From positions 1 to 25,202 of the IMG/VR virus record IMGVR_UViG_3300050125_000043: DNA of 25,202 bases; one strand, written 5' to 3'. This document shows, piece after piece, positions 1,910 through 24,129 of this stretch; within the stretch, counting starts at the first letter, position 1; the number at the start of each line of letters is the position of its first letter. This stretch comes from a virus. The notes below the pieces were generated by a model. That model worked only from the letters and a program-made list of their open reading frames with translations, was not told the origin of the DNA and made no database searches. Both the position numbers and the translations under genes were made by a program.

Positions 1910-1925
1910 TGTTTCACGTGAAACA
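1910..1925. promoter_or_regulatory. parS-like palindrome, copy 1
   Basis: The 16-bp perfect palindrome TGTTTCACGTGAAACA lies between the replication-side genes and the late module. It is identical to the consensus parS site bound by chromosomal ParB proteins. It sits 6 bp upstream of the first promoter-like element (1932). The sequence match is direct; binding by a ParB protein is inferred. As an RNA hairpin it would have only a 6-bp AT-rich stem and no U-tract, so a terminator is unlikely. Confidence 0.75.
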
Positions 1926-1931
1926 TTCCTA

Positions 1932-1965
1932 ACTTAAAACTTCAACTAAATTCAAGTGCTAATAT
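1932..1965 (+). promoter_or_regulatory. late promoter-like element P1
   Basis: The element ACTTAAAACTTC (1932-1943; one mismatch to the other four copies) is followed after 16 bp by TAATAT (1960-1965), a good -10-like hexamer. The same arrangement occurs at 6447, 9107, 20281 and 24148. It would drive the late genes from 2016 onward. The upstream element is not the usual TTGACA, so a phage activator or alternative sigma factor may recognise it. Confidence 0.65.
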
Positions 1966-2015
1966 CAAGAAAATATCAGGGATGTTAAATGCCGACCAGG
2001 AACAGGAGTAAAACG

Positions 2016-2333
2016 ATGTATGCGCTTTTTAAAAACAATAAGTTTGTAAAAATATGCCCGGCTATGCTGCTTGACGAATACATCAACGACAAAAATTATA
2101 TGCACTATCGCTTAAGGCCGGAACAGTCCAGTCATGGGGTAAATCACGATGACTACTATTATGACCTGAATATCGAGGGTAAATTAATTGTAATGCCAAA
2201 AAGCTCATATTGGGAAAAGATATACCGGGATACCCTGGATGCTGAGAAGCGCCACTATGATGCATTGGTTAAGCAGTTAGTAGGCATGACATTTACACAA
2301 CGGCTCATTGCATTATTTAGGGGTTACAGATAA
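2016..2333 (+). CDS. hypothetical protein, first gene of late operon
   Basis: This 105-residue protein (starting MYALFKNNKF) is given the ATG at 2016 rather than the in-frame ATG at 1989, because an AGGAG ribosome-binding site (2004-2008) lies 7 bases before it and nothing comparable precedes 1989. It is rich in Tyr, Lys and Arg. The N-terminal phrase resembles short phage proteins that read 'YALF/KNGK', but I assign no function. Its stop overlaps the next start (TAATG). It is the first gene after promoter-like element P1, two genes before the large terminase, a place where small terminase subunits or small head proteins are common. Confidence 0.7.
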   Translation: MYALFKNNKFVKICPAMLLDEYINDKNYMHYRLRPEQSSHGVNHDDYYYDLNIEGKLIVMPKSSYWEKIYRDTLDAEKRHYDALVKQLVGMTFTQRLIALFRGYR

Positions 2334-2581
2334 TGGATTTACAAGCGACATTGGCGGCCTTAACTACAGCAAGCGTACAAAATGGGGTTATCGCACAGCT
2401 TACGAGGCAAGCCTATATCAATCCTTTTGTTAACGAGATAAATTACTCTCAATTTTTACCCATAGTATATTTTAATATCATAGAACAGACCATCTCAATC
2501 TCGAATACCACAACTATTAATTTTACCCCATCGGACATTTTTAGTGCTACCGACTGGATTTTATTAAATGCCACTCTCTAA
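2333..2581 (+). CDS. hypothetical small protein upstream of terminase
   Basis: An 82-residue protein coupled to the previous gene through a TAATG overlap. It is rich in Ile, Thr, Asn and Ala, with almost no charged residues, and has a moderately hydrophobic stretch (about residues 40-55) that is too polar to call a membrane helix. No motif is recognised. It ends only four bases before the large-terminase start, and the terminase lacks a clear ribosome-binding site, so translation of this gene may deliver ribosomes to the terminase. Confidence 0.6.
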   Translation: MDLQATLAALTTASVQNGVIAQLTRQAYINPFVNEINYSQFLPIVYFNIIEQTISISNTTTINFTPSDIFSATDWILLNATL

Positions 2582-2585
2582 ATAA

Positions 2586-4244
2586 ATGGAATACAAGGCT
2601 AGGTTAACCGAGATACTCGAAAAACGTAGGTCAGGCGTATTAAACCTACAAGATAGTGAGGACTTTGCCAAGATAACCCGCTATATAAAAACTAAGGATT
2701 ATCCAAGTTATTGTAAGGCAATCCGGCCAACGTATAAATGGGCGTGGTTTCAGGAATATACACAACAAAGATTAAATAATGCCTTTGAAAAAAAGAATGG
2801 CCGAGTAATAGGATTACAACATCAGCAAAGTGCAAAAAGCGAGTTGTACGCTAGATGCGCAGTAAGTTACTGTTTTGGCAAGTTTCCAGAATGGAAAATA
2901 CTCTATTTAACCTACTCCGATACGCGGGCTAAAGTAGTGGCCGGAGATATTTTAGGACTGATAACTACATCGGAATATAGCGACATATTCCCTGAAGTAC
3001 AGTTAAAGGATGATGTTAGAGATGAGGTTCGTACCGCTAAAATGCGCAGACAAAAACTCACAATCAGCAACTTTACCAACATGGCTAGTAAGCGTGGCGA
3101 ATTTTATGCTACAGGTATTGAAGGCTCTTATAATGGTTTTGATGCCAATTTGATAATCCTGGATGATTTCTTTTCAGGATATGAGGAAGCTAATAGCCCT
3201 ACTATCCGCGATAAGCGTTGGCAAGCTTTTGTGAATAATATTATTACCCGGCAGCAAAAAGATACGGTAATCCTAGTAATGAGTACAAATTGGCACGCGG
3301 ATGACATTATCGGGCGATTAAAGGATTATATCAAAAACAAACCTGCTAATACCCCGGATTGGGAAGTAATACAGTTCGATGCCCTCAAGGATGAGCGTGA
3401 TTACCCATATGACCCCAGGCTACCAGGTGAATACCTCTGGCCGGAGCAGCGTATGGATGTGTACTTAGAGAAACAGGCATTAGACCCTATTGGTTGGATG
3501 ACTACCTATCAAAATATACCGCCTACAACCTCCGGGGTAATCTTTGATGCTTCATGTTTTCGTTGGTATGACGAGCCGGTTAATCCTAAAGGTATGCAGA
3601 TCGTAATTAGTATTGATCCGAATTACAAAAAAGATTCCAAGCAAGGTGATGAGGCTGCAATTGTGGTACTCGGCTTTCAGGCCAATAAAGTCTATTTACT
3701 TGATTTCTCAGCAGTTAACAAGGTAGATATATTGGATAACTGCCAGCGCATTAAACAATACATTATTAAATACCCTAACTACTATGCTGTCCTTGTGGAA
3801 GTCAAAGGCCAGGGTGAGGACATCGTTACGTTGCTCAACGATGAGGGTATTGGCAAAGTTAATAGCTATGACCCTAAGAACATCGGTAAATTATACCGGG
3901 CGCAAGTAATGATTCCTTACTGCCGAGCCGGACAATTCCTATTACCCAGTCCTGAATTAAAAGACAGCATGGGCTTTCCAGTCTGCCCGAATATACAAAA
4001 ATACGTCAATGAATTTATGCGCTTTACCGGTTTTGAGGGCGGCATTGATAACTGCGTTGATGCTACCAGTCAGGCATTTATCGAATACGGCTACCTTCTT
4101 GAACCAATAAAGATAAGTATGGGTTCTTATCATATTAAGAATGAAATGGGTATCGGACGTGGCCTCACCCAACTTAGCAATCCTATGAAAAGGTTAATGG
4201 ACAATGGCAATAAGAAAAAACCAGCGTGGGCTAACCGCCGATAG
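2586..4244 (+). CDS. terL: terminase large subunit (packaging ATPase/nuclease)
   Basis: The 552-residue protein has the two-domain build of large terminases, which cut concatemeric DNA and pump it through the portal into the prohead. In the ATPase domain a Walker A-like loop (QHQQSAKSE, residues 78-86) has Ala where Gly is usual, a variation known in other terminases; Walker B is LIILDDF (189-195) and the coupling motif is STNWHADD (233-240). The RNase H-like nuclease domain begins near 338 with ISIDPN (Asp344), then VLVEVKGQG (Glu405) and an aspartate pair in IDNCVDATSQAF (Asp488/Asp492), as expected for the metal-binding acidic residues. The 3' end overlaps the portal start by 41 bases. Length and order match the family well. 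Confidence 0.95.
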   Translation: MEYKARLTEILEKRRSGVLNLQDSEDFAKITRYIKTKDYPSYCKAIRPTYKWAWFQEYTQQRLNNAFEKKNGRVIGLQHQQSAKSELYARCAVSYCFGKFPEWKILYLTYSDTRAKVVAGDILGLITTSEYSDIFPEVQLKDDVRDEVRTAKMRRQKLTISNFTNMASKRGEFYATGIEGSYNGFDANLIILDDFFSGYEEANSPTIRDKRWQAFVNNIITRQQKDTVILVMSTNWHADDIIGRLKDYIKNKPANTPDWEVIQFDALKDERDYPYDPRLPGEYLWPEQRMDVYLEKQALDPIGWMTTYQNIPPTTSGVIFDASCFRWYDEPVNPKGMQIVISIDPNYKKDSKQGDEAAIVVLGFQANKVYLLDFSAVNKVDILDNCQRIKQYIIKYPNYYAVLVEVKGQGEDIVTLLNDEGIGKVNSYDPKNIGKLYRAQVMIPYCRAGQFLLPSPELKDSMGFPVCPNIQKYVNEFMRFTGFEGGIDNCVDATSQAFIEYGYLLEPIKISMGSYHIKNEMGIGRGLTQLSNPMKRLMDNGNKKKPAWANRR

Positions 4245-5895
4245 GCGTGTTACCTCGGATGAGCCTTATATAGATAAAGACAATAAAATTGTCATACCTG
4301 TAAAGAAGGGTACACCCTTTACGCAACAAGTAAAAAACTTGCTCATGGGTAAATATTCTAATGACCTAAATGTAAGCAACAAAGAGGTGTTTTCGACATT
4401 TCTTGATGTAAATGCCCTGATTGATGCAGAAGAAGGTACACGTATCCCCTTTGTATCTACTCTCTATGGCAATTTCTTAATCAATCCAAGCTCGGTAAGC
4501 ATCGGCACATTCCAAAAGATGTTGCAGATTGATGATGTTGTACGTAGATGTTATGAATTAGATGTAGCGACTATTGTTGATGGAATAGGTGAATATTATC
4601 ATGACGTACCAGAAATACAAGAATTTATTAGACGCTCTTTTAAGATATTACGTGGTGGCAAAGACGAGCTAGTCAGGAAAGCCTTATCCGCAATGTGGGC
4701 AGGATTCTGGTGCGGCCTTATGATGACTAAAAAAGATAACGATGGCTATACGGTAATTGAGGATGTCATGCACATGCCACAGCTATCAATACAGTTTACG
4801 GCCACACCGCAGGGTGATGTTGACGATATATACCAGTATGTATATAACTACCCATACGCAGGTACGCAAAACGCCTTAAGCATTATGTATAGCTCTATTA
4901 ATAATTATGACTATTCAGTAGGCGGTGGTGCAACAGGTCAGGGATTTGGTAACAATTTTGGTATAGATAGCCAGGCATCCCTGGGTGACATGGACTATCC
5001 GTTCCGTACCAATTTCATAAATACCTTTGGCCTGGTTAAGTTAGATAAAAAGCGCATAATGCACTTTATATACGATAAGCACAACGGCAAAATTAATCCC
5101 TATGGTTATTCACTATTCCGGGATTTCTACCAAATATGGATACGTAAAACCCTCACTGTCAGACTCCAGACATCAGCTATGCAACGTTGCGCCAATCCAG
5201 TATTAATCGGTTATGCCGATGCCAAAAAGGTAATTGATACACCAATGGGTATGATGCCAATAAATGCAGTGGACGCGCTTTATAATACCTTGCAGACCTA
5301 TACCGAGGAATCAGCGGTTATCTTGCCAGGATTAAAAGGACAAATGTTTGAGGTTGACGTTGTTGACTATGTAGCTAACTTTGATGTGTACGATAAAGCA
5401 CTAGCCTATCAAGACCGTGGTATTGAATCAGCATTGTTTGTGCCAGAGGGTATATTCAGCGGTGGCGGCAGCTATGCAGCAGCTACAGCCCAGAATAGCA
5501 TATATGCCCGGATGATGAACTCCATATCGAATGAGGTCGAGCATTGCATACTAACCCAATTTGTAGCATTTTTAATACATGAGAACTTTGATGAAAAGAC
5601 GTTGGACTTTGGCCGGTTTGAGAATAAGTTACAGAATCTTGATGATCAGATTAAACAAGTCAAGATATATGAAACACTTACCTCACAAGGGTATATGTCC
5701 CCAAAAGTACAATCTCAGGCCAATATCGTATTAAAGACCGTTGGCTTACCGGAACTGGATGATGCCGAGTTTAAAGAACTCCAGGCGGCCAATGAAGCCA
5801 AAGAACCTGAATCACCAAGTGACACTACAAAAAAAACTAATACTAAATCAGCCAGTGACCACTACACCAATCGTAGCAATGCAGAAATTAACTAA
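4204..5895 (+). CDS. portal protein (Mu gp29-like, DUF935 type)
   Basis: At 563 residues this is typical of phage portals, the dodecameric ring at the special vertex through which DNA enters and to which the neck attaches. The region from about residue 280 to 345 (HFIYDKHNGKINPYGYSLFRD, then a helix with paired Trp/Lys/Arg and CANPVLIGY) resembles the Mu gp29/DUF935 signature where a 'PYG.' turn precedes a helix and a 'G.P...G' strand. A later segment (about residues 365-385, ESAVILPGLKGQ) also fits. The final 35 residues are rich in Lys, Ser, Thr and Glu and probably disordered. The start lies inside the terminase gene with AAAAGG upstream. Directly after TerL and before the protease, its position supports the call. 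Confidence 0.88.
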   Translation: MAIRKNQRGLTADRRVTSDEPYIDKDNKIVIPVKKGTPFTQQVKNLLMGKYSNDLNVSNKEVFSTFLDVNALIDAEEGTRIPFVSTLYGNFLINPSSVSIGTFQKMLQIDDVVRRCYELDVATIVDGIGEYYHDVPEIQEFIRRSFKILRGGKDELVRKALSAMWAGFWCGLMMTKKDNDGYTVIEDVMHMPQLSIQFTATPQGDVDDIYQYVYNYPYAGTQNALSIMYSSINNYDYSVGGGATGQGFGNNFGIDSQASLGDMDYPFRTNFINTFGLVKLDKKRIMHFIYDKHNGKINPYGYSLFRDFYQIWIRKTLTVRLQTSAMQRCANPVLIGYADAKKVIDTPMGMMPINAVDALYNTLQTYTEESAVILPGLKGQMFEVDVVDYVANFDVYDKALAYQDRGIESALFVPEGIFSGGGSYAAATAQNSIYARMMNSISNEVEHCILTQFVAFLIHENFDEKTLDFGRFENKLQNLDDQIKQVKIYETLTSQGYMSPKVQSQANIVLKTVGLPELDDAEFKELQAANEAKEPESPSDTTKKTNTKSASDHYTNRSNAEIN

Positions 5896-5904
5896 GGAAT
5901 AGAA

Positions 5905-7236
5905 ATGCAAAAACCAATAATTTTACAAAACTGCGGATTCAGTGTAGGGGTAGCCAAAGACGATAACACCACAATGGATGTGAACGTCCAGGCATTGCAT
6001 ACCGGTATATTCGTTGATATGAATGGTACTGAGATTATCATTGATAAGGCCATGCTGGAAAATCTGGTTAAAACCTATAATGAGAGTGCGGCTGTAACCT
6101 ATGCGATTGATGCCGAAACCGACCCCTCAGTTAAAGATATAGCCCTGGAAGATTTCGACAATCGCAATGCGCCGAACCAGGTTAATCATAATGCAACCGA
6201 TGCTAATTTAACCGTGGGTCATGTTGTTGGCCTAATGGAACTTAAAGAGATAAATGGCAAGACATACCTATTTTGTAAAGTCCGGGTTAAGGGTGAGGAG
6301 AATGTTGCCAAAGTCCGGGATAAACGCTTCCGTAACGTGTCAATGCAATTTAATCCTGAAACATACGACTTTGTAGAAATATCCTGGGTAGTCAAAGGTG
6401 CAGCCTTTGAATCCCATACGATTCTTGGCAAAAGTGAAAACCCAATACTTAAAACTTTAGATGTTGATATTGATAATATTCTTACAAAGCAAAAGAATAT
6501 TGCTGTCATGAAACGTGAGTTAGATGCAACCAAGCATTTAATAGCATTGTCAGTAAATGGGCGAATAAACAGAGTTCAGTTAAACAAGGTGAAAGCTAGT
6601 TTATCCAAGTTTAATGACCCAAAAGCAGTAATAGAATTAATGGAAGAAGTTTTACCCGATACCGAGTTTAAACCGAAAGTCATTAATAACCAGATTCTCT
6701 TAAAAGAACTATTAAAGGGTAAAACAATTATGCCAGCAAATGTAAATGCTTCTCAATCAAAAAATCCAATTGATGCATTGAAAAATGCTCAAACGGTTGT
6801 CATGGGGGATATGGGTGATATTCAACATTCTAACATCGGCAAAGATGATGTACTGGCCTACTGTGACGCGGCTGATAAACATATGGAACTCATGGCAATG
6901 TCTGCGGATGGCTATGAAAAAGGCGATATGGAAATGGGGCGCAAGTATGGTGAAATGGCTAAAAAACTAGCTATGGACATGAAGGGTGGTAAGGCCAAAA
7001 TGTCTGACTATGACATTGACAAAGATTCCGCTAAGTCGGATGAAGTCAAGGAAATGGGTAAACGCATCAAGGCAGCCGAGGAAGAAGTCAAAAAAGAAGT
7101 CGAAGAAAAACTTGCCAAGTTTGAAGAAAAAATTACCGTAATGTTAGCTAATCATAATCAAGCAACTACCAGTGAAATGAAAGATGTCAAAGATGCCATC
7201 TTATTGCTCACTAAAGTTGCCACAGGGAGTAAATAG
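5905..7236 (+). CDS. prohead protease joined to a probable scaffold domain (Mu gpI-like)
   Basis: This 443-residue protein begins after a clear AAGGA site. Residues about 30-175 resemble prohead maturation proteases of the Mu I / U35 kind: a histidine in VNHNATD (His95) followed by TVGHVVGL, and a serine in NVSMQF (Ser146) followed by a VEISWVVKGAAF strand, the usual 'itEiSlv..PA' place. I take His95 and Ser146 as the catalytic candidates. Residues about 276-443 are Met-, Lys- and Glu-rich with a strongly charged coiled-coil-like helix near 390-415, typical of a scaffold that fills the prohead and is then digested. A promoter-like element lies inside the gene at 6447 and a ribosome-binding site precedes the internal Met276 (base 6730), so the scaffold may also be made on its own, as in lambda C/Nu3 and Mu I/Z. 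Confidence 0.82.
   Translation: MQKPIILQNCGFSVGVAKDDNTTMDVNVQALHTGIFVDMNGTEIIIDKAMLENLVKTYNESAAVTYAIDAETDPSVKDIALEDFDNRNAPNQVNHNATDANLTVGHVVGLMELKEINGKTYLFCKVRVKGEENVAKVRDKRFRNVSMQFNPETYDFVEISWVVKGAAFESHTILGKSENPILKTLDVDIDNILTKQKNIAVMKRELDATKHLIALSVNGRINRVQLNKVKASLSKFNDPKAVIELMEEVLPDTEFKPKVINNQILLKELLKGKTIMPANVNASQSKNPIDALKNAQTVVMGDMGDIQHSNIGKDDVLAYCDAADKHMELMAMSADGYEKGDMEMGRKYGEMAKKLAMDMKGGKAKMSDYDIDKDSAKSDEVKEMGKRIKAAEEEVKKEVEEKLAKFEEKITVMLANHNQATTSEMKDVKDAILLLTKVATGSK
6447..6479 (+). promoter_or_regulatory. internal late promoter-like element P2
   Basis: A perfect ACTTAAAACTTT (6447-6458) is followed after exactly 15 bp by TAATAT (6474-6479). It lies inside the protease coding sequence, right after the protease-like domain. 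A transcript from here would start near 6486 and cover the scaffold-like part, the decoration-like gene and the major capsid gene, giving extra mRNA for the most abundant head proteins. It is the only one of five copies inside a gene. Confidence 0.6.
6714..6732 (+). promoter_or_regulatory. candidate internal translation start for scaffold
   Basis: AAAGGG (6714-6719) lies 10 bases before an in-frame ATG at 6730 (Met276). Initiation here would give a 168-residue, charged, helix-rich protein made of just the scaffold-like C-terminal part. Another in-frame ATG at 6508 (Met202) is closer to promoter P2 but has a weaker ribosome-binding site. This is inference from sequence only. Confidence 0.4.
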
Positions 7237-7238
7237 AC

Positions 7239-7703
7239 ATGGCTTTCTTTCCAATTGTTAATCAAGACTTCGCAAGTCTGGCGTTCTCGCCTACTTGGGG
7301 CTATGGTGACGTTCCCGTTACCATGCAGTTTCAGTTAGATAATTTACCAATACCGTCCACACAAACATATGCTATCGGTACTCTGCTTGGACAAAGCGCA
7401 GCTACTCCGGGTAATCTGTGTATCTACGATTATACCCTGCAAGATACCCAACCGTTTAAAGCTGTATTCTTTGACGAAACAGCACCAGTGGAAGTTGCCG
7501 GGGTTCAGTTTGGCTTTATAAATTGCGCTATTAACGACAGGCCAAGTACGTTATGGCTCTATTCGATTATTAACGGTGCAAATAGCGGTACTGCCGATAT
7601 TGACAACTTAGTTACTTTGGGATGGGCAAGTATTGTCTATCAGTATGAAAATGGTAATGCAATCAAATTAGTCCAATTCAAGGGCATGGGAACAGGGGCA
7701 TAA
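7239..7703 (+). CDS. capsid decoration-like protein
   Basis: The 154-residue product follows a GGGAG ribosome-binding site and lies directly between the protease/scaffold and major capsid genes, the usual place of a head decoration or stabilisation protein. It is beta-rich, low in charge, and contains the pattern AIGTLLGQ (about residues 46-53) followed by Gly/Pro-rich strands and a small-domain end; trimeric decoration proteins of the lambda D type have a comparable 'aGtvlg' strand near the N-terminus. The identification rests mainly on position, size and composition rather than on a diagnostic motif. If P2 is active it would be made in the same amounts as the capsid protein. Confidence 0.6.
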   Translation: MAFFPIVNQDFASLAFSPTWGYGDVPVTMQFQLDNLPIPSTQTYAIGTLLGQSAATPGNLCIYDYTLQDTQPFKAVFFDETAPVEVAGVQFGFINCAINDRPSTLWLYSIINGANSGTADIDNLVTLGWASIVYQYENGNAIKLVQFKGMGTGA

Positions 7704-7704
7704 T

Positions 7705-9027
7705 ATGACAACTCAAGCAACAAATCCGATAGTCGCACTATCCGCACTTAGGAACGCCAGTCGTTCCGACAAAGCCCTGGGGATTGAAGAAGCATTAAAA
7801 TATGGTGGCGTTAGAAAAGCCTCAGATATTGTTAATACCAGCTTCTCCTCATCCAAAAACCTATTTATGGCATCCGACAATGTGCAGAAAAACCTCATTG
7901 CCCTGGGTGCTACCGGCGACCCTTTATTAAATGGTACGAGTTTGATTACCGGTGTTATGGAACAAGTAACGCCATATATCCAAATGACTACCGTGCGTGA
8001 GCTATTCCCCGAAGCCGAGTATGCCAGCCAACGCTTGTTACTAGACATCTTCGACCCAATTACAGGTATGACACATAATACTGCATTGGACGAACCTGTA
8101 CCGGTTATTCAAAAACGAGGTATCGTAACCGAAGAATTTCAACCAGCTACCTCTCAAGAAGTATTAGAGATCAGCCAGGAAGAAATACTATTTTTACGTA
8201 ATCCTGGCGACCAAAATATCTCTGTGCGTGGCCTAGCTACATACATGGCTATGTGGTCAGAACAGTTATCCCATCGTGGCTTAGTTAAGCAATTGAATGA
8301 CATCTACACGGCATTATTTACCAATCAATATACCTGGAAAAACAAGGTTATCAGTTATGGTATCCCAGGTGGTAATACCATTGATACCAGTGCATTATCG
8401 GGTAATTGGGGTACGATTACAGCATCGAACATTACACCAAATCCATTAGCTAACCCAATTTTGGACTTGTCAATCATCCTTAACAACATCTTAAAAATGT
8501 ACCGTGGCTTAAAGATGAAGTTAATCATGAATTATAATACCAATCAGTTGATTTGCCAAAATCCTAACGTTATCAGCCGTGTACCATTTATCTACGCTAA
8601 CAATAGCCTGGTAAGTCCGGCAATGACGGGTGGTGTTACTGCGGATACCTTACTTAAATACTTCCTGGGTGGTGATTTGGGTGTTGAAGTTATTATTGAT
8701 AATTCTACCTACATTGCTGACGTAAATGACCCTAATGGTTATTCAGCCGGTGCGGTTAATCCAATTCTGCCTAATTATATGATTTGGGTATATATTGATA
8801 CTGACGGCTTCGGTAAACCTTTGGGCGAATATGCTTATACCCTGGCTGTACAAAATGGCGGCACAGCTAATCCTAAAGCGGGTAAATACTTCTACCTGGT
8901 TGATACGAGTATTAGCCAGACTATAGATGGCATTAGCCAGCCCAGGATTTTCTTAGGCCACGGCTGGAATGGCTCACCTCGGATAATGCGTCCGAATGAT
9001 ATATGGCATATTTACGTGGGTAGTTAA
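7705..9027 (+). CDS. major capsid protein (HK97 fold)
   Basis: A 440-residue protein in the position of the major capsid protein, after protease/scaffold and decoration genes and before a strong terminator. The N-terminal 50 or so residues are helical and polar and could be a cleaved delta region. The stretch from about residue 70 (PLLNGTSLITGVMEQVTPYI) to 115 resembles an N-arm/E-loop start, and the helix near 175-205 (GLATYMAMWSEQLSHRGLVK) looks like the long spine helix. The later region (270-440) carries the alternating strands and helices of an A-domain. No catalytic motif is expected. The assignment is strong by context; the fold is inferred. Confidence 0.85.
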   Translation: MTTQATNPIVALSALRNASRSDKALGIEEALKYGGVRKASDIVNTSFSSSKNLFMASDNVQKNLIALGATGDPLLNGTSLITGVMEQVTPYIQMTTVRELFPEAEYASQRLLLDIFDPITGMTHNTALDEPVPVIQKRGIVTEEFQPATSQEVLEISQEEILFLRNPGDQNISVRGLATYMAMWSEQLSHRGLVKQLNDIYTALFTNQYTWKNKVISYGIPGGNTIDTSALSGNWGTITASNITPNPLANPILDLSIILNNILKMYRGLKMKLIMNYNTNQLICQNPNVISRVPFIYANNSLVSPAMTGGVTADTLLKYFLGGDLGVEVIIDNSTYIADVNDPNGYSAGAVNPILPNYMIWVYIDTDGFGKPLGEYAYTLAVQNGGTANPKAGKYFYLVDTSISQTIDGISQPRIFLGHGWNGSPRIMRPNDIWHIYVGS

Positions 9028-9052
9028 AACGATTCAACGGTGCTTGTGTCTA

Positions 9053-9083
9053 AATAGGTGGTTTAATGGCCACCTATTCTTTT
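9053..9083 (+). terminator. intrinsic terminator after capsid gene
   Basis: AATAGGTGG (9053-9061) pairs perfectly with CCACCTATT (9070-9078) across an 8-base loop, giving a 9-bp stem followed by CTTTT. It lies 26 bases after the capsid stop and just before promoter-like element P3, so it separates the head operon from the connector/tail operon. Confidence 0.75.
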
Positions 9084-9106
9084 ATCCGTGTTCTATCTGC
9101 AAATCC

Positions 9107-9140
9107 ACTTAAAACTTTAGACAACATGCAATGTTAATAT
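9107..9140 (+). promoter_or_regulatory. late promoter-like element P3
   Basis: A perfect ACTTAAAACTTT (9107-9118) is followed after 16 bp by TAATAT (9135-9140). It lies right after the terminator and 33 bp before the next gene, so it is the natural start of the connector/tail operon. The rest of the 145-bp gap (9028-9172) holds only this, the terminator and an AAGGA ribosome-binding site. Confidence 0.7.
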
Positions 9141-9172
9141 TATCAAAATAATAAATCATTTAAGGATACACA

Positions 9173-9649: not shown

Positions 9650-9651
9650 TC

Positions 9652-11810: not shown

Positions 11811-11827
11811 TTTTAAAGGATTAAATC

Positions 11828-13771
11828 ATGGCATCAAGCCCATTTGTTATCAATACGCGGATTCCGTCAGTACAAGGGAATCAGGCAATCCAAGCCACGC
11901 CTCCATTGCCTACGCCACAAAATAATATCTTTGTCTATGGCAATCAGTTTACTAAAACATATTCACCTAATGATGGTACTCCGGTATTAGCCCCGACTGT
12001 GGGATACCCTAGATATGAGTTCTATAAAACATATAAATTACCGGCTAAGTATCTTAATGACCCATTTGGCGCATTGTCATACTTTGATTTATGTGGTTTC
12101 ACTGTAGGCTATGGCTATACCTATACAGAAACACTCCTTAATGCTGCCGCCGTAGATATTACTACCTATGCAGCAAGTGATAATGTAATTGTTTATTATA
12201 CTGCATCGTCAGCGTTGATTGCGCCTATGGTCGGTGCGGCAGTTACCGGCACATTTGATGATACGACCCAATCAGTTACCGGCACATTTGTATCGGCAGC
12301 CGTTGGTACATTCGTTAATCCACCAAATACTACAGCCGGTACATATGATAGCTACGTTATCCTACATAGTTCTAGCTTTGCAACCGTAGCCGCCGCTGAT
12401 ACAATTGTTATTACATTTACCAATGCCGGTTTATTAACGCCTGACCCAACTCAGACCGACCCGTTCCTAATGAATATGTATCAGACGTTACAGGCTGCAT
12501 TGATACCGATTAATGCCAATTCTACAGTAGCAACACCAAATGTATGGTTCTCATTATTGCCTCAAGCTGGAGTCAGTGGCTACTTTGGGGCAACAGCAAG
12601 TGCAGAAACATTGACAGGATGTACCTCAGTTGGTTCACTAGCGAGTGGCAATCAACAGATTATATTTGCCTTACCATCTTTAAATGCCAATCTTGTGCCA
12701 TTAAGTCCATTAGGTGCAACAACCATTACCCAGGCAACCAGTTTGGCATCTGGTACGGTGAGTTCAGCATCTATTAATGGGGGTAATCTGGTCGTGCAAA
12801 TGACTGGCGTAACAACAGCATTTGTGGATACTGACGTATGCACATTACATTTAGATGCTACGCAAACTATCTTTACATTCCAACAGGCTTTGTTTGCTAA
12901 TCAAAATTTATCATTGCAACAATTGCCATGTATCTACCCAATATTGAGTAATACTAATCTTACTACAACATATTTACCAATCTTCACCTATGTGGCTGCA
13001 CTGAACGAACCAGCTACAGCCCAGAATGGTCAGGCTATTTGCCAAGTACCATTTGCCAACATTACGATAGCCTTAAACCTGGCGGCAACTACATTACCGT
13101 CAGCTACTAATAGCTGGCAGTATGAGCCTATCTATTATCCATATGTGCCGCAAGTGGGTGATTTACCATTAACAACCGGACAATTAGCCTGTGCCTATGC
13201 AATGGTGGTCGGTTCTAATGTAGCACCATTAAACCCACAAGCAGGGGTAGTTATAAATGGCTTGCCGGTATTAGCTAATACTGCAAATTATGTATCTACA
13301 CAGATTAATGGCATTGCTGATCAGGTTATGCAACTTGGCTGGAATGTGATTGCGGTTAATAATAATCAACAGGCATATGTGGTAAATCCATTAACCGGAC
13401 AAACTACATTGCCAGGCTTGCCTACGCCGGATGTGGAATTTTTCTATGAATATGTATGGCAAACTGTAGATTATCTGCGTAAGGGTATTACCTTAATCTG
13501 TCAAGGAATTGGTTTAGGCCAGGTACGGCAAACATCCAGCGTAATAGCTACGCTGAAAGCACAGATTATATCATTCATGCTGGACATGCAAACCCAGGGT
13601 ATGTTGTTAAATGTAGCACAAAATGAGGCATATCTAACTATTGTGCAAGACCCGACAAACCCACTTGGTATAGATATTGGCGTACCTACTCAAATCGTAC
13701 CGGGCTTAGAAGATATTTACTATACGCTCAATATTTTCTCCAGTACAGTTACTTTACAAACAGCGGCATAA
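11828..13771 (+). CDS. tail sheath protein with internal beta-rich insertions
   Basis: The 647-residue protein lies immediately upstream of the tube gene, as sheath genes of contractile phages do. The C-terminal 115 residues (from VEFFYEYVWQTVDYLRKG near 535, then an arginine-containing helix, a long helix ending near 590, and the closing strands) fit the sheath C-terminal domain that forms the contractile mesh; the segment near 440-530, with AYAMVVGSNVAPLNPQ and NVIAVNNNQ, fits the 'gv.a..D....P.n' and 'v.v' core. Between about residues 105 and 330 is a Thr/Val/Ala-rich region with near-repeats, probably Ig-like or surface-exposed beta domains. It starts after AAAGGA. It is longer than compact sheaths such as Mu gpL (about 500). 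Confidence 0.75.
   Translation: MASSPFVINTRIPSVQGNQAIQATPPLPTPQNNIFVYGNQFTKTYSPNDGTPVLAPTVGYPRYEFYKTYKLPAKYLNDPFGALSYFDLCGFTVGYGYTYTETLLNAAAVDITTYAASDNVIVYYTASSALIAPMVGAAVTGTFDDTTQSVTGTFVSAAVGTFVNPPNTTAGTYDSYVILHSSSFATVAAADTIVITFTNAGLLTPDPTQTDPFLMNMYQTLQAALIPINANSTVATPNVWFSLLPQAGVSGYFGATASAETLTGCTSVGSLASGNQQIIFALPSLNANLVPLSPLGATTITQATSLASGTVSSASINGGNLVVQMTGVTTAFVDTDVCTLHLDATQTIFTFQQALFANQNLSLQQLPCIYPILSNTNLTTTYLPIFTYVAALNEPATAQNGQAICQVPFANITIALNLAATTLPSATNSWQYEPIYYPYVPQVGDLPLTTGQLACAYAMVVGSNVAPLNPQAGVVINGLPVLANTANYVSTQINGIADQVMQLGWNVIAVNNNQQAYVVNPLTGQTTLPGLPTPDVEFFYEYVWQTVDYLRKGITLICQGIGLGQVRQTSSVIATLKAQIISFMLDMQTQGMLLNVAQNEAYLTIVQDPTNPLGIDIGVPTQIVPGLEDIYYTLNIFSSTVTLQTAA
12241..12290 (+). repeat. 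direct repeat in sheath gene
   Basis: AGTTACCGGCACATTTG occurs at 12241-12257 and again at 12274-12290, a 33-bp (11-codon) period, encoding two copies of a VTGTF strand. It lies in the inserted region of the sheath and may reflect local duplication in a surface-exposed beta domain. Confidence 0.7.
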
Positions 13772-13772
13772 A

Positions 13773-13788
13773 TGTTTCACGTGAAACA
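13773..13788. promoter_or_regulatory. parS-like palindrome, copy 2
   Basis: TGTTTCACGTGAAACA, one base after the sheath stop and 19 bp before the tube start. With copy 3 it shares the 20-bp identity AATGTTTCACGTGAAACAAT, so these two differ from copies 1 and 4 in flanks. The site is canonical parS by sequence; the binding protein is not in the window. Confidence 0.75.
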
Positions 13789-13807
13789 ATTTTAAGGACA
13801 TATTATT

Positions 13808-14254
13808 ATGGCTACAAGTGCAATAGGTTTCTATTTCGACCGATTCCGGGTTCTGGTTGGTGGTCAGGATTTCGCCCAGGCCCCGGGTAATATTCTAAGT
13901 CTTGCTGTATCACAAGATGGTGGATTAACGTGGGTAGATGGGTTCAGTCCTAATCACATGCCTCAAGGTGTACTCCGGGCGAATACCCATACCGTGTTTC
14001 GGATTACCGAGAATCTGCAATACAATGTAATCCCGATAGACTTCTCAGCTATTGATTACAGCGCATCGAGCGTGGATATTCAGTTGATAGCGCCGAATAG
14101 TCAGTATGCTGCGGATGTGTATGCCGGTGGTAGTGTGTATCTTTTGAAGTCGGTAGCTTGGGCGGCTGACAGCTTAGGGGCGCAATATGCGGTTAATGTT
14201 CGCAGGGATTTAGATTTCTTCGTAGTAGGTGGAAGTTATTGGCTGACGGTGTAA
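13808..14254 (+). CDS. tail tube protein
   Basis: A 148-residue protein directly after the sheath gene, the standard position and size of a contractile tail tube subunit. The sequence is almost all beta: strands near 8-25 (FYFDRFRVLVGGQDF), 28-45, 60-80 and 95-148, with no strong helix, ending in VVGGSYWLTV. Tubes stack as hexamers inside the sheath. Good AAGGA ribosome-binding site. The gene is flanked on both sides by parS-like palindromes 484 bp apart. Identification rests on position, size and composition. Confidence 0.75.
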   Translation: MATSAIGFYFDRFRVLVGGQDFAQAPGNILSLAVSQDGGLTWVDGFSPNHMPQGVLRANTHTVFRITENLQYNVIPIDFSAIDYSASSVDIQLIAPNSQYAADVYAGGSVYLLKSVAWAADSLGAQYAVNVRRDLDFFVVGGSYWLTV

Positions 14255-14256
14255 AA

Positions 14257-14272
14257 TGTTTCACGTGAAACA
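14257..14272. promoter_or_regulatory. parS-like palindrome, copy 3
   Basis: TGTTTCACGTGAAACA, two bases after the tube stop and 28 bp before the chaperone start. It is 484 bp from copy 2. Between here and the chaperone start there is only an AT-rich leader with an AAAGG ribosome-binding site. Confidence 0.75.
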
Positions 14273-14300
14273 ATATTGAATAAAATATAAAGGTAAATAA

Positions 14301-14993
14301 GTGGCTGACAAAAAGCAAGGGTGGAATAAACAGGAATGGATAAATGAGTATTCCAAGCAGGATAAACGACTACAATCATCAGCAGTACAGCGTGAGTTAA
14401 TTGCCAATGATGCCGGGATTAGTCTTGAGCGAACGGCTAAGATAGGTCGTGGAGTACGTGAGATACACGATGTGCAGATATTTGGCGATACCGTACCTAT
14501 GCGCGTATTATCCATGGATGAGGAACGTAGGCTACGCCATGCAACCCATATAGACATGAAGGCATACCCGGAGTTTGATAAACAATCTAATGAGTTTGCC
14601 ATTGAATTTAATAAACAATTGCTGCGTAAAATGGTGAGTTTATCCACAAGCCCATGCCCTGAATATGTATCTGACGAGATGAGATTCTTTACTGAACGGG
14701 ATATAGGGGCATTACCGGCCACTACATTTGCTGAACTAATTAATATATACCGTACCTTTGAACTGGAATACAACCCGGACGTGAACCAGATTGACGAAAA
14801 GGAGGTATTGACGTTAATTGGCGAACTACGCGACCCTGAAAAAAAGTCAGCATTGATACGTGGTATGACATTCTCTCAGCGTGGGGCAGTTCTGAGCAGA
14901 TTGTTAGAGATAGACACCGAACAAGAGGACAATTCACATTTATCGAGCTTATTGAACGACTCAAATCTCGACAAAAAGACCGAGCTACCTTAG
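14301..14993 (+). CDS. tail assembly chaperone
   Basis: The 230-residue protein starts with GTG and an AAAGG site. It is charged, helical and lies between the tube and tape-measure genes, where tail assembly chaperones sit in nearly all long-tailed phages (lambda G/GT, P2 E/E'). No enzymatic motif is visible. The chaperone is usually made in two forms by a -1 ribosomal frameshift; here a -1 frame reading through to 15061 without a stop supports that. A perfect AAAAAAG heptamer (14840-14846) and a CAAAAAG (14972-14978), both in the correct phase, are candidates for the slip. The unshifted product ends at TAG 14991-14993. The assignment is from position plus the frameshift signature. Confidence 0.72.
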   Translation: MADKKQGWNKQEWINEYSKQDKRLQSSAVQRELIANDAGISLERTAKIGRGVREIHDVQIFGDTVPMRVLSMDEERRLRHATHIDMKAYPEFDKQSNEFAIEFNKQLLRKMVSLSTSPCPEYVSDEMRFFTERDIGALPATTFAELINIYRTFELEYNPDVNQIDEKEVLTLIGELRDPEKKSALIRGMTFSQRGAVLSRLLEIDTEQEDNSHLSSLLNDSNLDKKTELP

Positions 14994-18660: not shown

Positions 18661-20279
18661 GCGTACAAAATATTTCACAAATTCTTTACTCATTTTCAAT
18701 CGAACCAATATTAACAGGCGGTGTATCTGGGGATGCTGGTAAATTCCTAACCCTGGGGGATGGACAAAAGGTTACAAGCATTAATTGGTTTATCATAGAT
18801 ACCCAACAAGCCATGCAGATCATGAGTAATGGTGCGGATATATCAGATAGCTATGATGAGATAAAGTTCGAGAGCTTTAACATAACGAATAGCATCTTTA
18901 GTCCAATTGGCGTATCCACATTCAACTGTATTATAGATGCATCAACTACCGGCTCAACCTACAATTATGGCAACCCGATTATAGATGTTATCCGTGAAGG
19001 TGACATATTCCGGGCATACTATGACAGCATCAGTAACAATAACCCGCAGCAATTAATGGTAGGTACGATTGAGAATATATCCATAACTTATAATCTGGGG
19101 GGATGTAAAATTACCTTCAATGTAGGCTATTTACCCAACATCTTAGCACGTAGCCAGTTAGTGCAAACCCAGGCACAAGCCCAGGTAACAGGTACAACAT
19201 TACAAGGCTTTGCACCACAACAAGTAGTATTTGGCACGTTCCTCCATGAACTACTCAGTGAAACCTATATCAATCAAACTACCGGTAATACCTATTATTA
19301 TGGTGGTAAAACAGGTGGAGTGTTTGAAGTGGTCGCAGCGGGAATGGCAACAGCTAATAGCCCAACAGCTACATCCGGGAGTGCTATTAATGCCGACTCG
19401 TATGTATTTGCGGTAACTGCACCGACTGAGAGTAAGTTATCCACCATCTTACAAATCCTCTATCCATACCAACGGGTGTTTTATGTAGATACCAATGGCG
19501 ACTTAAACATTACCCCACTAACAACCTTTTATGATAATACCGAGCAGTGGTCATTAGATATTAACGGTAATCCCAATGCCATACCGTGCGATAGTATAAC
19601 GCTTAACAAAAATACGACTGTATTACAAAACCGGGCATATTGTGCCATGAATCAATTATTGGTGCAATTCGTAACCCAGGGTATAACCGGGGCAAATCCG
19701 GCAGCAACCGGCGTGGCTATAGCTACCCCAACCGGACAGGCGGCAACATTATTCCCCCGCGCCTATGACATGGTACAAAGTGGGTTAGGCTTACAAACAG
19801 CTTTCTCGGTTCAATCATTTAATGGCGATTCTATCTTGCAAAATAGTGGATTATTAAATACCGCCGTTGCATTAGGCCAGCAATCCTTACAAGGTATGAA
19901 GATATTATTTAATATCAGTAATCAAAATGTGGCCGCAACATCATCATACCTTGCTACATTAGACCCACTTAAATACATGATGTCGGTATATGCCGGACGA
20001 CAACTGGCCGAGTCATTAATGAATGACTTATTGGTTGATATAACCATAGATACGATCTTAACCTATAACGACAATTTAGGGCGGTTCAGGAAAATACCAC
20101 TTAACCAAACAGTCACCGTGCCACCGGTAAGTAATAAAAACTATGATGGCCAGGCAAACCTATTTTGCTATGGCTTTAACTTATCATTTGCTATGGGCGA
20201 TGGTTCTAAAACTACCCTCAATCTGTGTAAACCATATGTCTATACCTGTGCCTGGTGCGATGAGCTTTATTCAGTCTAG
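18657..20279 (+). CDS. baseplate hub protein (Mu P/gp44-like, T4 gp27-like)
   Basis: The 540-residue protein lies between the N-like gene and the spike gene, the position of the Mu P / T4 gp27 hub, which forms the ring joining tube, hub and spike. It is beta-rich: strands flanking IDVIREGDIFRAYYD (about 105-120) and MVGTIENISITY (136-147) fit the first tube-like domain of the gp27/gp44 fold, where a 'G..v.v....' strand precedes '..G.i..i....'. The region 155-250 is Gln/Thr-rich, and later segments (about 290-345 and 420-510) could form the second barrel. No enzymatic motif is seen. Translation is coupled to the upstream gene by an ATGA overlap. Confidence 0.68.
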   Translation: MSVQNISQILYSFSIEPILTGGVSGDAGKFLTLGDGQKVTSINWFIIDTQQAMQIMSNGADISDSYDEIKFESFNITNSIFSPIGVSTFNCIIDASTTGSTYNYGNPIIDVIREGDIFRAYYDSISNNNPQQLMVGTIENISITYNLGGCKITFNVGYLPNILARSQLVQTQAQAQVTGTTLQGFAPQQVVFGTFLHELLSETYINQTTGNTYYYGGKTGGVFEVVAAGMATANSPTATSGSAINADSYVFAVTAPTESKLSTILQILYPYQRVFYVDTNGDLNITPLTTFYDNTEQWSLDINGNPNAIPCDSITLNKNTTVLQNRAYCAMNQLLVQFVTQGITGANPAATGVAIATPTGQAATLFPRAYDMVQSGLGLQTAFSVQSFNGDSILQNSGLLNTAVALGQQSLQGMKILFNISNQNVAATSSYLATLDPLKYMMSVYAGRQLAESLMNDLLVDITIDTILTYNDNLGRFRKIPLNQTVTVPPVSNKNYDGQANLFCYGFNLSFAMGDGSKTTLNLCKPYVYTCAWCDELYSV

Positions 20280-20280
20280 C

Positions 20281-20313
20281 ACTTAAAACTTTGAAAATTC
20301 CCTATGATACTAT
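20281..20313 (+). promoter_or_regulatory. late promoter-like element P4
   Basis: A perfect ACTTAAAACTTT (20281-20292) starts one base after the hub stop. After 15 bp comes TACTAT (20308-20313), with TATGAT five bases earlier as an alternative -10. It would drive the spike/wedge operon beginning at 20335. No hairpin terminator is visible before it. Confidence 0.65.
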
Positions 20314-20334
20314 TGCAAAAACAGAGGATGCACA

Positions 20335-20967
20335 ATGTCTAGCTTTAATGGATATATTACTAAAAGCCAACTAAATTTAGGTACGGGCAACCCGGTTGTA
20401 TCTTGCACATTAAATTACAACACCCTGGATGGCTATGCTGTAGATAATATGCCGCTCATTCAGCCCTATGGCTATACATCCTTGCCACCGGATAATACCT
20501 CATGTACCTATACCAGCTCCGGCAATGGCTATTATGATGCCTTTGTCAGCGGATTTACCAATCAACAGGCTGATACCAGCAATCTTGATGGCTTGGTAGC
20601 AGGTGAATCAGCAACCTGGAATAGCACTAATTTTACCCGGCAACTAAAGCTCGGGGGAGCGTTTGATTGCTTTACAGGTGCGATGGCGAAGATAACTACG
20701 GCGGCAATAAACGGTGGCAATACCAATAAGGTTCTGATTGATTTATGCGCTGAAATAACGGCATTAGAATCATACATTAATGATTTTGTTACGGCATATA
20801 ATATTCATATCCACAGTGGTGTTACGACAGGTAGTGGCGATTCAGCAGTTCCAACTGTTACAGAAACAGGATATACGCCAACATCAGATTTCAATACGGA
20901 TAGCACGTTCCTGAATCAATCACCGATTCAAAACTACATTGACTCTAATGGCAAGGTACTTACATAA
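20335..20967 (+). CDS. baseplate spike / assembly protein (Mu gp45-like, gpV-like)
   Basis: A 210-residue beta-rich protein. The segment PLIQPYGYTSLPPDN (about residues 40-54) matches the Mu gp45 pattern in which an OB-domain region contains '..qpyGf.s.PP'. The C-terminal part carries an H-x-H motif (HIH, 158-160) followed by a Ser/Thr/Gly segment, like the metal-binding motif at the apex of P2 gpV-type spikes, where a bound iron ion stabilises the tip. Spikes of this type pierce the host membrane. Its length fits gp45. Next gene starts on its last base (TAATGG). The call is good from motif and order. Confidence 0.75.
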   Translation: MSSFNGYITKSQLNLGTGNPVVSCTLNYNTLDGYAVDNMPLIQPYGYTSLPPDNTSCTYTSSGNGYYDAFVSGFTNQQADTSNLDGLVAGESATWNSTNFTRQLKLGGAFDCFTGAMAKITTAAINGGNTNKVLIDLCAEITALESYINDFVTAYNIHIHSGVTTGSGDSAVPTVTETGYTPTSDFNTDSTFLNQSPIQNYIDSNGKVLT

Positions 20968-21341
20968 TGGCTACCCTCAGTACATATATCTCAGCCCAAA
21001 CCGCAGATTACCAATTATTAAATGGTAAGGTGGTATTTGCAAATGAACTTGCGACCGAAGCTTATAGCCGGATTGTAACACCGCTAGGTACGTACATATT
21101 CGACCCGACCTTTGGCTGTGAGATACCCGGATGGTTTAATACCCGGATAAAAGTGAGTGCCAATCAAGTAGTGACAGCGGCCAATAACGCATTGCAACCC
21201 ATGGTAACACAAGGTAGGGCATTATCTGTGGCTACTACGTGCAACAGCATAACCTTAAACTCGGTAAATTTCACGTGTAATATTGTGGATACGAATAACA
21301 ACAGCTTTCAATTTAGTGTACCGTATATCTCAGGAGTATAA
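20967..21341 (+). CDS. baseplate wedge protein (gp25-like; Mu gp46-like)
   Basis: A 124-residue protein that starts on the spike's stop. It has the gp25/gpW-type pattern: an N-terminal 'D.qll.g....a.el..ea..ri' helix region followed by a VTPLGTYIFDPTFGCEIPGWFN segment (about residues 37-58), in which 'tp.Gt....p.yG..l..' is the family signature, then a C-terminal strand set. Such proteins join the wedges to the tube/sheath start and trigger sheath polymerisation. Its position before the J gene is typical. Confidence is high for family, less for details. Confidence 0.8.
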   Translation: MATLSTYISAQTADYQLLNGKVVFANELATEAYSRIVTPLGTYIFDPTFGCEIPGWFNTRIKVSANQVVTAANNALQPMVTQGRALSVATTCNSITLNSVNFTCNIVDTNNNSFQFSVPYISGV

Positions 21342-21343
21342 AA

Positions 21344-22774
21344 TTGGCAACACCGCAAACATTCGCCCAATTATTACAAGTTTATTACAACACCTATATC
21401 GGGCTTAATCCAAATACTGCGCCAAGCATCCCGGGAACTGACCCATACTTTAAGGGTAATGCTGTAGCACAAGTAGCAGCTAACGCTATTCAAGATACCC
21501 AGATTTTGCAAAATAACATCTTTGCGGCATCAAGTAGTGGCGTATTTTTAGATAAGTTCGCCGGTAGCCTGGGTATGACTCCGCGTATGCCAGCATTACC
21601 AGCACAAGGATATACTACAGGCTTAACCGCTAATTCCGGTACTACGGCAGCAGCAGCCTTTACCATCCCGGCCAACACCAAGTTAACCAGCAGCACAACT
21701 AATCAAACCTACATCGTTCTCCAATCTGTATCTGTTACTATTAGTGCAGTCCTCGCCGATGTGGTTATGCAGGTGCAAGCGGTTAATTTAGGTGCAGGTA
21801 CGGATAGCCCCGAAGGTGATACACTCACCTTAGTAACTCCATTCGATGTGCCGACCACAAGCCAGATAATATTGTCAGCTACAGTAGCAACCACAGGCAT
21901 GACAACCGGCTCGGACATAGAGTCAGATAATTCATTAGCCTTACGCATATTCCAGTTTATGATTAATCCGCGTGGTGGTGGTAGTGCAGGTGATTATATT
22001 AAATGGTGCTTCCTTGGTTCACCAAATGTTACCCAAGCTGCATGTATAACTACCGCCGCAGGTAATAGCGGTATATTATATCCGATTATCTTTGAAGGTA
22101 GTCCAGACCCTAATTTCTATATAGATGGTAATGCCAACAATGATTATATGCCAACCGCAGTACCAATTAATCGCACAGCAATATTAGCTGATATAACGGC
22201 AGTTCAGACATACATTACCGGTGTTAGGCCAGTTAATGACAACCCTAATGTGCAAACTGTGTCAACCTATGAATTAGCCGCTACGGATTCGGTACTTGGC
22301 ACATCCAGCAATTCATTTACATTAAATGTTTCATTAAGCCCAGGGGTATCTTTAACTACCAACATATTGATACCGAGTAACAACACTTACTTAACTGTAT
22401 CTCAATTAATACAACGTGAATTTAGACGTGCTATTATCGCAACAGTGGCGGGTGGTACTACTATAGCTTACAGTGGCTATGTATCGAGCAGCCCGGCTAT
22501 AACTACGCCTAATCAGTATATTTTAGTCAGTGACATAGAACGCACAATATTATTAGGACTTGCCAATAGTAATACATTCCAGGGTAACTATGCCTCGGTG
22601 ATTGTAGCAATGGAACTAGAGTATTTCTACAATGGTTCGGGTACAGCCACATACTATGTGCCAGTGCCAAGTTTACAATCCGGTAATCTATTTCAAAATG
22701 TAGGTGGGCAATATCAGGCATATTATGTGTATGATATTAATACCGCGATGGTTAATATTAATGTGGTAACTTAA
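21344..22774 (+). CDS. baseplate protein J-like (Mu gp47-like)
   Basis: The 476-residue protein begins at a TTG with AGGAGT upstream, which fits the family start. The feature PRGGGSAGDYIKWCFLG (about residues 208-224), followed by a strand and VTQAACI, is the hallmark 'p.GG...dY..wa....gV..a.v' of the baseplate J family. The region 75-200 is a beta-rich, Thr/Ala-rich domain preceding it. J-like proteins form the wedge body of contractile baseplates. It follows the gp25-like gene and precedes the gp48-like gene, as in Mu and P2. Confidence 0.85.
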   Translation: MATPQTFAQLLQVYYNTYIGLNPNTAPSIPGTDPYFKGNAVAQVAANAIQDTQILQNNIFAASSSGVFLDKFAGSLGMTPRMPALPAQGYTTGLTANSGTTAAAAFTIPANTKLTSSTTNQTYIVLQSVSVTISAVLADVVMQVQAVNLGAGTDSPEGDTLTLVTPFDVPTTSQIILSATVATTGMTTGSDIESDNSLALRIFQFMINPRGGGSAGDYIKWCFLGSPNVTQAACITTAAGNSGILYPIIFEGSPDPNFYIDGNANNDYMPTAVPINRTAILADITAVQTYITGVRPVNDNPNVQTVSTYELAATDSVLGTSSNSFTLNVSLSPGVSLTTNILIPSNNTYLTVSQLIQREFRRAIIATVAGGTTIAYSGYVSSSPAITTPNQYILVSDIERTILLGLANSNTFQGNYASVIVAMELEYFYNGSGTATYYVPVPSLQSGNLFQNVGGQYQAYYVYDINTAMVNINVVT

Positions 22775-22775
22775 T

Positions 22776-24098
22776 ATGCTTAACACCCTAGTATTATATC
22801 TGTTAAACAATCCGGCCTATCTCAACACACCGCAATATTTTCAGATCGGCTATATTGGAACGGATGCATCTTTAAGTGATGTAACATCATCATGCACTAT
22901 AGAGATATTGCAACCAACCGGGGCTATAATAGTTGATACCAATTATCTACTCTACAATAGCGAGTTACAATATGCAACGATAGAATTAGCTGTAACCTAC
23001 TCTACATTGCCTATATTCTATTTTCAGTTATGCTTAGTTAGGCCATTCTATTCAGTTACCCAAAAGAACTTGTATAACACCTATCGTAAATATCTACCCC
23101 AGAATGTATATACTTCAAGTCAGAGTTCAACATCGCCAGTATTCCTTGATGATACATCTTTAACTACGGTACTGGAACAGATATATGATAATAGCGCAAC
23201 AGCAGACCCGGCATTTGTTGATCTCAATACCATTGTTAGCCGCTTCTTTCCTGATAGTGGTTATCCGGCCTGGGAGCAATACCTAGTTGGCACTAACTCT
23301 TTATACCTTCAAGAAAATGCCGGGTCGAATTATCCATTGTTATTACAAGAGTTTTACCAAACAAATATTAACAATAATACCAATCCGTATTTCCTGGCAT
23401 TGTCCATATCGCAATATATTTATTACCGATTAGGTGATTTATATTATGTCTATATTGGCGAGGATGTATTTAATATAACTGATGCATTTATCCTTAATGA
23501 AAATAGCTTGGGGCATTGCATATTATCCGGTTCAGCTAATGGTTCAACACCCACATTAGTAATAATCTACATTATGAATGGTAGCGGATTATCCTCACAA
23601 TTTCAAACTGAATTGTATAACTTCGTGCGTAGGATTATGCGTGCCGGAGCTTTAGTACAACTCGATTACACCCATACATTCACTGACTTTGGATTAGCAA
23701 CTATTGGTAATACCTATTGGCATGACCCTCGGCAGAATAATACATATTGTTTACAATGGAATCCAGGAGATTTAGCCCAAGCATTAGGCTATGCCGGGGG
23801 TGGTTCTACAATTACGGTCGTGAGCTTTACGGTAGTTCTAAGTGGTGGGATAGGTACAGGCACAACCCTAGCGCCGAATACTACCTATACAGTAACTATT
23901 ACACCTGTATTTAGTACACCAACATTATTACCGCTTCCCGCCGATTTATATACCTATTTCTATTCTGAGAACTATGCCGTAATGACCACATTCTTATCTG
24001 GCGAAACTATGAACTTTCAAACATTTTCAGCCGGAACAGTAACGATGCAGATATATCTGGGAACGATATTAAATACCATAACCTATACCATTACCTGA
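22776..24098 (+). CDS. baseplate protein, probably gp48/gpI-like
   Basis: The 440-residue protein follows the J gene, the place of Mu gp48 or P2 gpI, which closes the wedge and anchors the fibres. It has FFPDSGYPAWEQYLVG (about residues 157-172), like the 'PdsG.awe' phrase of the gpI/gp48 (DUF2313-type) family, within a mostly helical region. It is about twice the length of Mu gp48, with a Tyr/Asn-rich first part (1-150) and a Thr-rich, Ig-like tail (about 355-440). Family is supported mainly by order plus this phrase. Translation begins two bases after the J stop. Confidence 0.6.
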   Translation: MLNTLVLYLLNNPAYLNTPQYFQIGYIGTDASLSDVTSSCTIEILQPTGAIIVDTNYLLYNSELQYATIELAVTYSTLPIFYFQLCLVRPFYSVTQKNLYNTYRKYLPQNVYTSSQSSTSPVFLDDTSLTTVLEQIYDNSATADPAFVDLNTIVSRFFPDSGYPAWEQYLVGTNSLYLQENAGSNYPLLLQEFYQTNINNNTNPYFLALSISQYIYYRLGDLYYVYIGEDVFNITDAFILNENSLGHCILSGSANGSTPTLVIIYIMNGSGLSSQFQTELYNFVRRIMRAGALVQLDYTHTFTDFGLATIGNTYWHDPRQNNTYCLQWNPGDLAQALGYAGGGSTITVVSFTVVLSGGIGTGTTLAPNTTYTVTITPVFSTPTLLPLPADLYTYFYSENYAVMTTFLSGETMNFQTFSAGTVTMQIYLGTILNTITYTIT

Positions 24099-24113
24099 TA
24101 TTCCCCTCAAATA

Positions 24114-24129
24114 TGTTTCACGTGAAACA
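24114..24129. promoter_or_regulatory. parS-like palindrome, copy 4
   Basis: TGTTTCACGTGAAACA between the gp48-like stop and promoter-like element P5, 18 bp upstream of the latter. Its right flank (TT) matches copy 1, which also lies just upstream of a promoter-like element. Confidence 0.75.

Follow-up and report, generated by a model that had tools for sequence, protein, structure and literature searches.

Chromosomal-type parS palindromes between the late genes of a contractile-tailed phage, and the probable use of host ParB

Phage phi29 provides a precedent for a virus that relies on the chromosome segregation machinery of its host: its genome becomes trapped in spores through the action of the host protein Spo0J (ParB), according to Meijer et al. 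2005 (cited in PMC9437464). Here we analyze IMG/VR virus record IMGVR_UViG_3300050125_000043 (25,202 nucleotides, the whole of which is referred to below as the window), which carries four exact copies of the 16-bp perfect palindrome TGTTTCACGTGAAACA, the putative ParB-binding site parS. The phi29 genome yields no match to the ParB_N domain (PF02195), as does the 25-kb fragment that makes up the window, and has four dispersed chromosomal-type parS sites, all of the one-mismatch form TGTTCCACGTGAAACA that is permitted by the Bacillus subtilis consensus. However, phi29 infects a spore-forming host and has a short tail and protein-primed replication, and three of its four copies are intragenic, whereas the window has genes for what appears to be a contractile tail, and its palindromes are all perfect and all intergenic.

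On bacterial chromosomes, ParB is a clamp dependent on cytidine triphosphate (CTP) that, once loaded at parS, slides along the DNA and brings in SMC (PMC7022226). The same review gives the B. subtilis parS consensus as TGTTNCACGTGAAACA and lists the parS of Hyphomonas neptunium as TGTTTCACGTGAAACA, letter for letter as in the window. Thus, the 16-mer is that of the chromosomal parS of bacteria, but it is found here on a phage genome, where the copies are spread across the late genes rather than clustered near the origin. Another mobile element with a comparable arrangement is SGI1, the parS mimics of which bind the ParB of the helper IncC plasmid and stabilize SGI1 (PMC10954446). SGI1 resembles the window, as we interpret it, in lacking partition proteins and using the ParB of another replicon, but it is not a phage, the ParB in question is that of a plasmid rather than a chromosome, and SGI1 also destabilizes its helper. 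Finally, RedRock-type mycobacteriophages, P1, N15 and cyanophage Mic1 likewise have a centromere-like site on the phage genome, but encode their own ParA and ParB. Given that phage use of host ParB is already known from phi29, what makes the present case of interest is its lineage, the perfection and intergenic placement of its sites, and how broadly the phenomenon extends across phage types.

Four intergenic palindromes and their identity

In addition to the four exact copies of TGTTTCACGTGAAACA, the record contains no further or decayed copies, even with three mismatches allowed. Dinucleotide shuffles yielded a mean of 0.11 matches at three or fewer mismatches and never reached four, and Markov models of order 1 to 4 predict between 1e-6 and 2e-5 exact copies in the window. 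All four copies lie outside the main open reading frames (ORFs); a 16-mer fits wholly between genes at only 1.7% of the start positions, and the probability that four of four would be intergenic by chance is about 8e-8. Chance or compositional artefact was rejected on the strength of the shuffles, the Markov expectation and control palindromes. An earlier, sequence-only reading of this DNA had reported the four copies with coordinates and letters that proved exact, had placed them always between genes and had estimated the chance expectation at 6e-6; all these statements hold, and the search for additional copies that it proposed, run on the 25,202-base record, added none.

Copies 1 to 3 start 2-3 bases after the preceding stop codon, and copy 4 starts 16 bases after it. 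The flanks of the four copies are AT-rich but otherwise unlike each other, so that the 16 letters themselves are what stays constant. Copies 2 and 3 bracket a single gene of 148 amino acids. The earlier view that a partition site is out of place among late genes is only partly borne out because in other phages, phi29-like ones included, sites are likewise found within structural genes or in the gaps between them.

The identification of the four palindromes as chromosomal-type parS is well supported by the exact agreement with the consensus, the perfect symmetry, the enrichment in phages over two controls, and the lack of decay intermediates in a comparison family (both described below). The consensus is matched at all four sites, the reference being that of B. 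subtilis and Hyphomonas. Both the window statistics and the phage collections place the occurrence of the site far above chance, and the equation of the 16-mer with the chromosomal ParB-binding consensus, already made by the sequence-only reading, agrees with the published list.

Exact parS in other phages and the source of ParB

Phages carry exact parS far more often than would be expected from control palindromes. The 16-mer occurs in at least 120 stretches in IMG/VR, compared to 1 for parS read backwards and 20 for a palindrome with a shuffled half-site. Among isolate phages, 392 records match a 30-base query around parS vs 8 for the reversed-palindrome control; the 392 records take in near-copies, such as those of HunterDalle and Ashes, where the outermost base is different, and some Listeria records that are unannotated contigs and might be bacterial DNA. 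We found no survey of parS in phages in the open-access literature, subscription papers and preprints being outside the scope of the search.

Inovirus L126 (PQ006097.1) has six exact copies in a 6.2-kb genome, counted over the whole record. Filamentous phages persist in living cells, and this inovirus therefore seems well suited to testing whether host ParB promotes retention. Two exact copies each are present in the phi29-like Glutamicibacter phage Voltaire, Lactobacillus phage Iacchus and Gordonia phage Woes, and one each in the microviruses SpV4 and phi-CA82, Enterococcus phage Athos, Bacillus phage B103 and Listeria phage A511; marine phages are also among the carriers. Five uncultured phi29-like phages (L013, L054, L264, L265 and L293) carry 2-6 exact copies and no ParB gene: three records, assigned as phi29-like by PHROG matches of their polymerase, terminase and capsid, hold 4, 6 and 5 copies, and two more hold 3 and 2. 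The records with 4-6 copies are 18-19 kb long.

ParB_N (PF02195) is absent from 34 of the 35 carrier records, the exception being Microbacterium phage Quhwah, as well as from six records of phi29-like or related phages, of which two belong to the 35 as well. When only whole isolate-phage records with an exact site or a one-mismatch copy are considered, 13 of 14 lack the domain; because these are whole genomes, a host protein is the simplest reader of the sites there. That the window sites, too, are read by a host protein is an extrapolation from these whole-genome carriers to a record that is a fragment. There is no PF02195 match in the 25-kb record and no ParA family match among the window genes examined in general family searches, which did not include a search with ParA's own model. 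The parA and parB genes of a phage-encoded parABS system are, accordingly, missing from the 25-kb fragment, as the sequence-only reading had stated.

We favor, with moderate confidence, the reading that the window sites are functional parS at which host ParB loads, coupling phage DNA to the host segregation and condensation machinery. Under this model, after infection, the clamp of host chromosomal ParB would load at the phage sites and slide from them onto the phage DNA, and the phage genome would become tied to the host ParA/SMC segregation and condensation machinery. The gain for the phage, most likely, would be that its DNA is kept with the nucleoid or passed to daughter cells or spores when the infection proceeds slowly, is deferred or is carried. 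Of the possible roles, hitching onto host ParB has the most support because complete carrier genomes are nearly always devoid of ParB and because phi29 offers an experimental precedent; the window phage most likely borrows the host sorting protein as phi29 does. The other roles that had been proposed from the sequence, namely carriage as an extrachromosomal prophage, organization of DNA for packaging, and a phage ParB/Noc-like protein, obtained no direct support here.

Two considerations weigh against this preference. First, Mycobacterium phages are numerous (at least 466 isolate records share one terminase family) and their host has ParB (PMC7022226), yet they are outside the ten names with the most parS matches (8 or more records each), so the presence of a host ParB does not suffice to explain which phages are carriers. 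Second, the record is an open-ended fragment, and a phage parB may sit elsewhere in the genome. Escherichia (at least 338) and Klebsiella (at least 448) phage records are likewise outside the ten top names, in a comparison that is uncontrolled. The hosts of Escherichia and Klebsiella phages are not known to have a chromosomal ParABS, and the absence of these phages from the ten top names fits such hosts.

Alternative roles of the sites

The incompleteness of the record bears directly on the possibility that the phage encodes its own ParB/Noc-like protein outside the contig, such that the sites would form a self-contained partition or genome-organizing system, as in phage-plasmids. RedRock-type mycobacteriophages and cyanophage Mic1 do encode parABS, and Quhwah combines a parS copy with a ParB_N gene. 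Nevertheless, we regard this explanation as unlikely, although one to be taken seriously: all but one of the whole isolate-phage carriers lack PF02195, and the sites of RedRock (8-bp repeats) and Mic1 (a different palindrome) are unlike the chromosomal consensus. In Quhwah (L137, NC_047993.1; record positions 49574-49831), the phage has its own ParB_N-domain gene, and the parS copy is inside a gene annotated as a DNA-binding protein.

A second explanation involves transcription. The motif ACTTAAAACTT, probably a phage-specific late promoter, is found in four gaps of the window (1932, 9107, 20281 and 24148), each time followed after about 17 bases by TAATAT-like letters; a fifth copy, at 6447, is intragenic. 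Host ParB bound at the sites could then act as a regulator or roadblock of late transcription, setting, for example, the output of the gene bracketed by sites 2 and 3. Every site is at a gene junction, two of them are 6 and 18 bases upstream of the motif, and in Pseudomonas, raised ParB levels reportedly strengthen the repression of the promoters adjacent to parS3 and parS4 (PMC5521831). However, the two elements are not tied: they share two gaps, but sites 2 and 3 come without the motif and two motif gaps come without parS, so that parS as the operator of the motif was rejected as a general rule. Given also the intragenic location of most phi29 sites, regulation of late genes appears distinctly unlikely to be the role of the palindromes.

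We give little credence to the idea that the sites are decoys titrating host ParB off the chromosome and disturbing segregation, division or sporulation to the benefit of the phage. Such an effect might be expected of the many copies in small, high-copy genomes of unrelated phages, namely the inovirus and the phi29-like phages with 4-6 copies described above. However, many phages have a single site, and four sites per genome would titrate ParB only if the phage copy number were high.

It is highly improbable that the sites aid packaging, or the condensation of replicated phage DNA ahead of packaging. This possibility was suggested by a marine terminase family related to Pelagibacter phage HTVC027P, in which 12 contigs whose flanks have diverged (L022, L030, L032, L045, L069, L086, L096, L100, L104, L114, L122 and L123) carry parS at a distance of 18-136 bases ahead of the terL ORF, and by the position of window site 1 in the gap that precedes the terminase region. 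Among the 71 usable upstream regions of the marine family, 10 contain a full-consensus copy and none contains a copy with 1-2 mismatches, an all-or-none pattern that fits a site that would be useful only when intact and would be lost or gained by lineage. An exact consensus copy is absent from HTVC027P, HTVC023P and two other complete relatives, and HTVC027P has one one-mismatch copy elsewhere in the genome. A fixed link between parS and terL was therefore rejected as the association is lineage-specific, with the site missing in most members of the family (61 of 71), and the remaining three window sites are far from terL. In contig L100, a second copy, of the form TGTTCCACGTGGAACA, immediately precedes the parS.

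The reading of the palindrome as something other than parS, whether a hairpin in the RNA, a leader peptide or an operator for a different regulator, is almost certainly wrong: hairpins of 6-7 bp can form and short frames do open at three of the sites, but the hairpins have low stability (-4.7 to -6.6 kcal/mol, z from -0.5 to -1.5), hairpin formation would not require the same letters in loop and stem at all four places, and the letters are an exact match to a known binding site. A terminator or RNA-hairpin function was rejected on the same grounds and because none of the sites is present in the list of terminator-like structures, which was compiled from a stretch that takes in three of the four. 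The short frames arise at 13772-13795, 14256-14279 and from 24113 onward, where a preceding A creates an ATG and a frame starting MFHVK; in other phages, the same letters open a longer ORF (for example, in L264 at 2848 and in L245 at 2193).

The phage fragment and the implications of its sites

The window is a complete IMG/VR record in which ORFs run off both ends and, judging by its gene content, is a 25-kb piece of a contractile-tailed phage (Table 1). Other genes in the window encode a lytic transglycosylase, a DNA-circularisation-type tail protein and baseplate proteins. Alignment-free fold models were of too low a quality to be interpreted (mean pLDDT, the predicted local distance difference test score, of 43 for ORF 992-1564 and 30 for ORF 13808-14254). 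Searches with the major head, portal, terminase, primase/helicase, sheath and baseplate proteins against IMG/VR, 50,697 isolate-phage records and a species-level bacterial genome collection detected no close relatives; the only matches, for terminase, portal and baseplate, are distant, those in isolate phages being below about 30% identity. Gly-rich repeats (GGT/GGC runs) occupy 24981-25202, at the end of the fibre-like ORF that leaves the contig.

Table 1. Positions of parS copies, candidate promoter elements and principal genes in the window
Feature	Position	Strand	Remarks
parS copy 1	1910..1925	.	2 bases past stop of ORF 1566-1907, in gap upstream of terminase region
parS copy 2	13773..13788	.	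between tail-sheath gene (stop 13769-13771) and ORF 13808-14254
parS copy 3	14257..14272	.	between ORF 13808-14254 and ORF 14301-14993
parS copy 4	24114..24129	.	gap ahead of last, Gly-rich, fibre-like ORF (24209-25201, open)
ACTTAAAACTT, candidate phage promoter element	1932..1942	+	6 bases past parS 1
ACTTAAAACTT, candidate phage promoter element	24148..24158	+	18 bases past parS 4
phage primase/helicase, C-terminal part (incomplete)	3..992	+	PHROG DNA primase 2.6e-10; PF19263 1e-06
terminase large subunit	2586..4244	+	phrog_38 1.7e-72
portal protein, Mu-like	4204..5895	+	PF06074 1.2e-17; phrog_113 6.9e-21
head maturation protease	5905..7236	+	phrog_976 2.6e-07
major head protein	7705..9027	+	phrog_29 3.1e-07
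candidate tail sheath (contractile tail)	11828..13771	+	PF17482 E 0.00025, weak, under curated cut-off; position agrees
148-amino-acid gene, tail tube by position only	13808..14254	+	follows sheath gene; no match in family searches

Beyond the window, we tentatively raise the possibility, while leaning slightly against it, that carrying host parS is a cis-acting strategy common among unrelated phages, including filamentous, single-stranded DNA icosahedral, phi29-like, SPO1-like and marine phages along with the contractile-tailed lineage of the window. Such centromere parasitism via host ParB/SMC would reach beyond spore-formers and would have been gained independently many times. If host ParB does load on these phage genomes, many phages would place, condense or retain their DNA through the host chromosome machinery, by means of a single mutable 16-bp element. 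The phi29 case would then extend to non-sporulating hosts and to single-stranded DNA phages, and the palindrome would help to predict from sequence which infections are deferred or of the carrier type.

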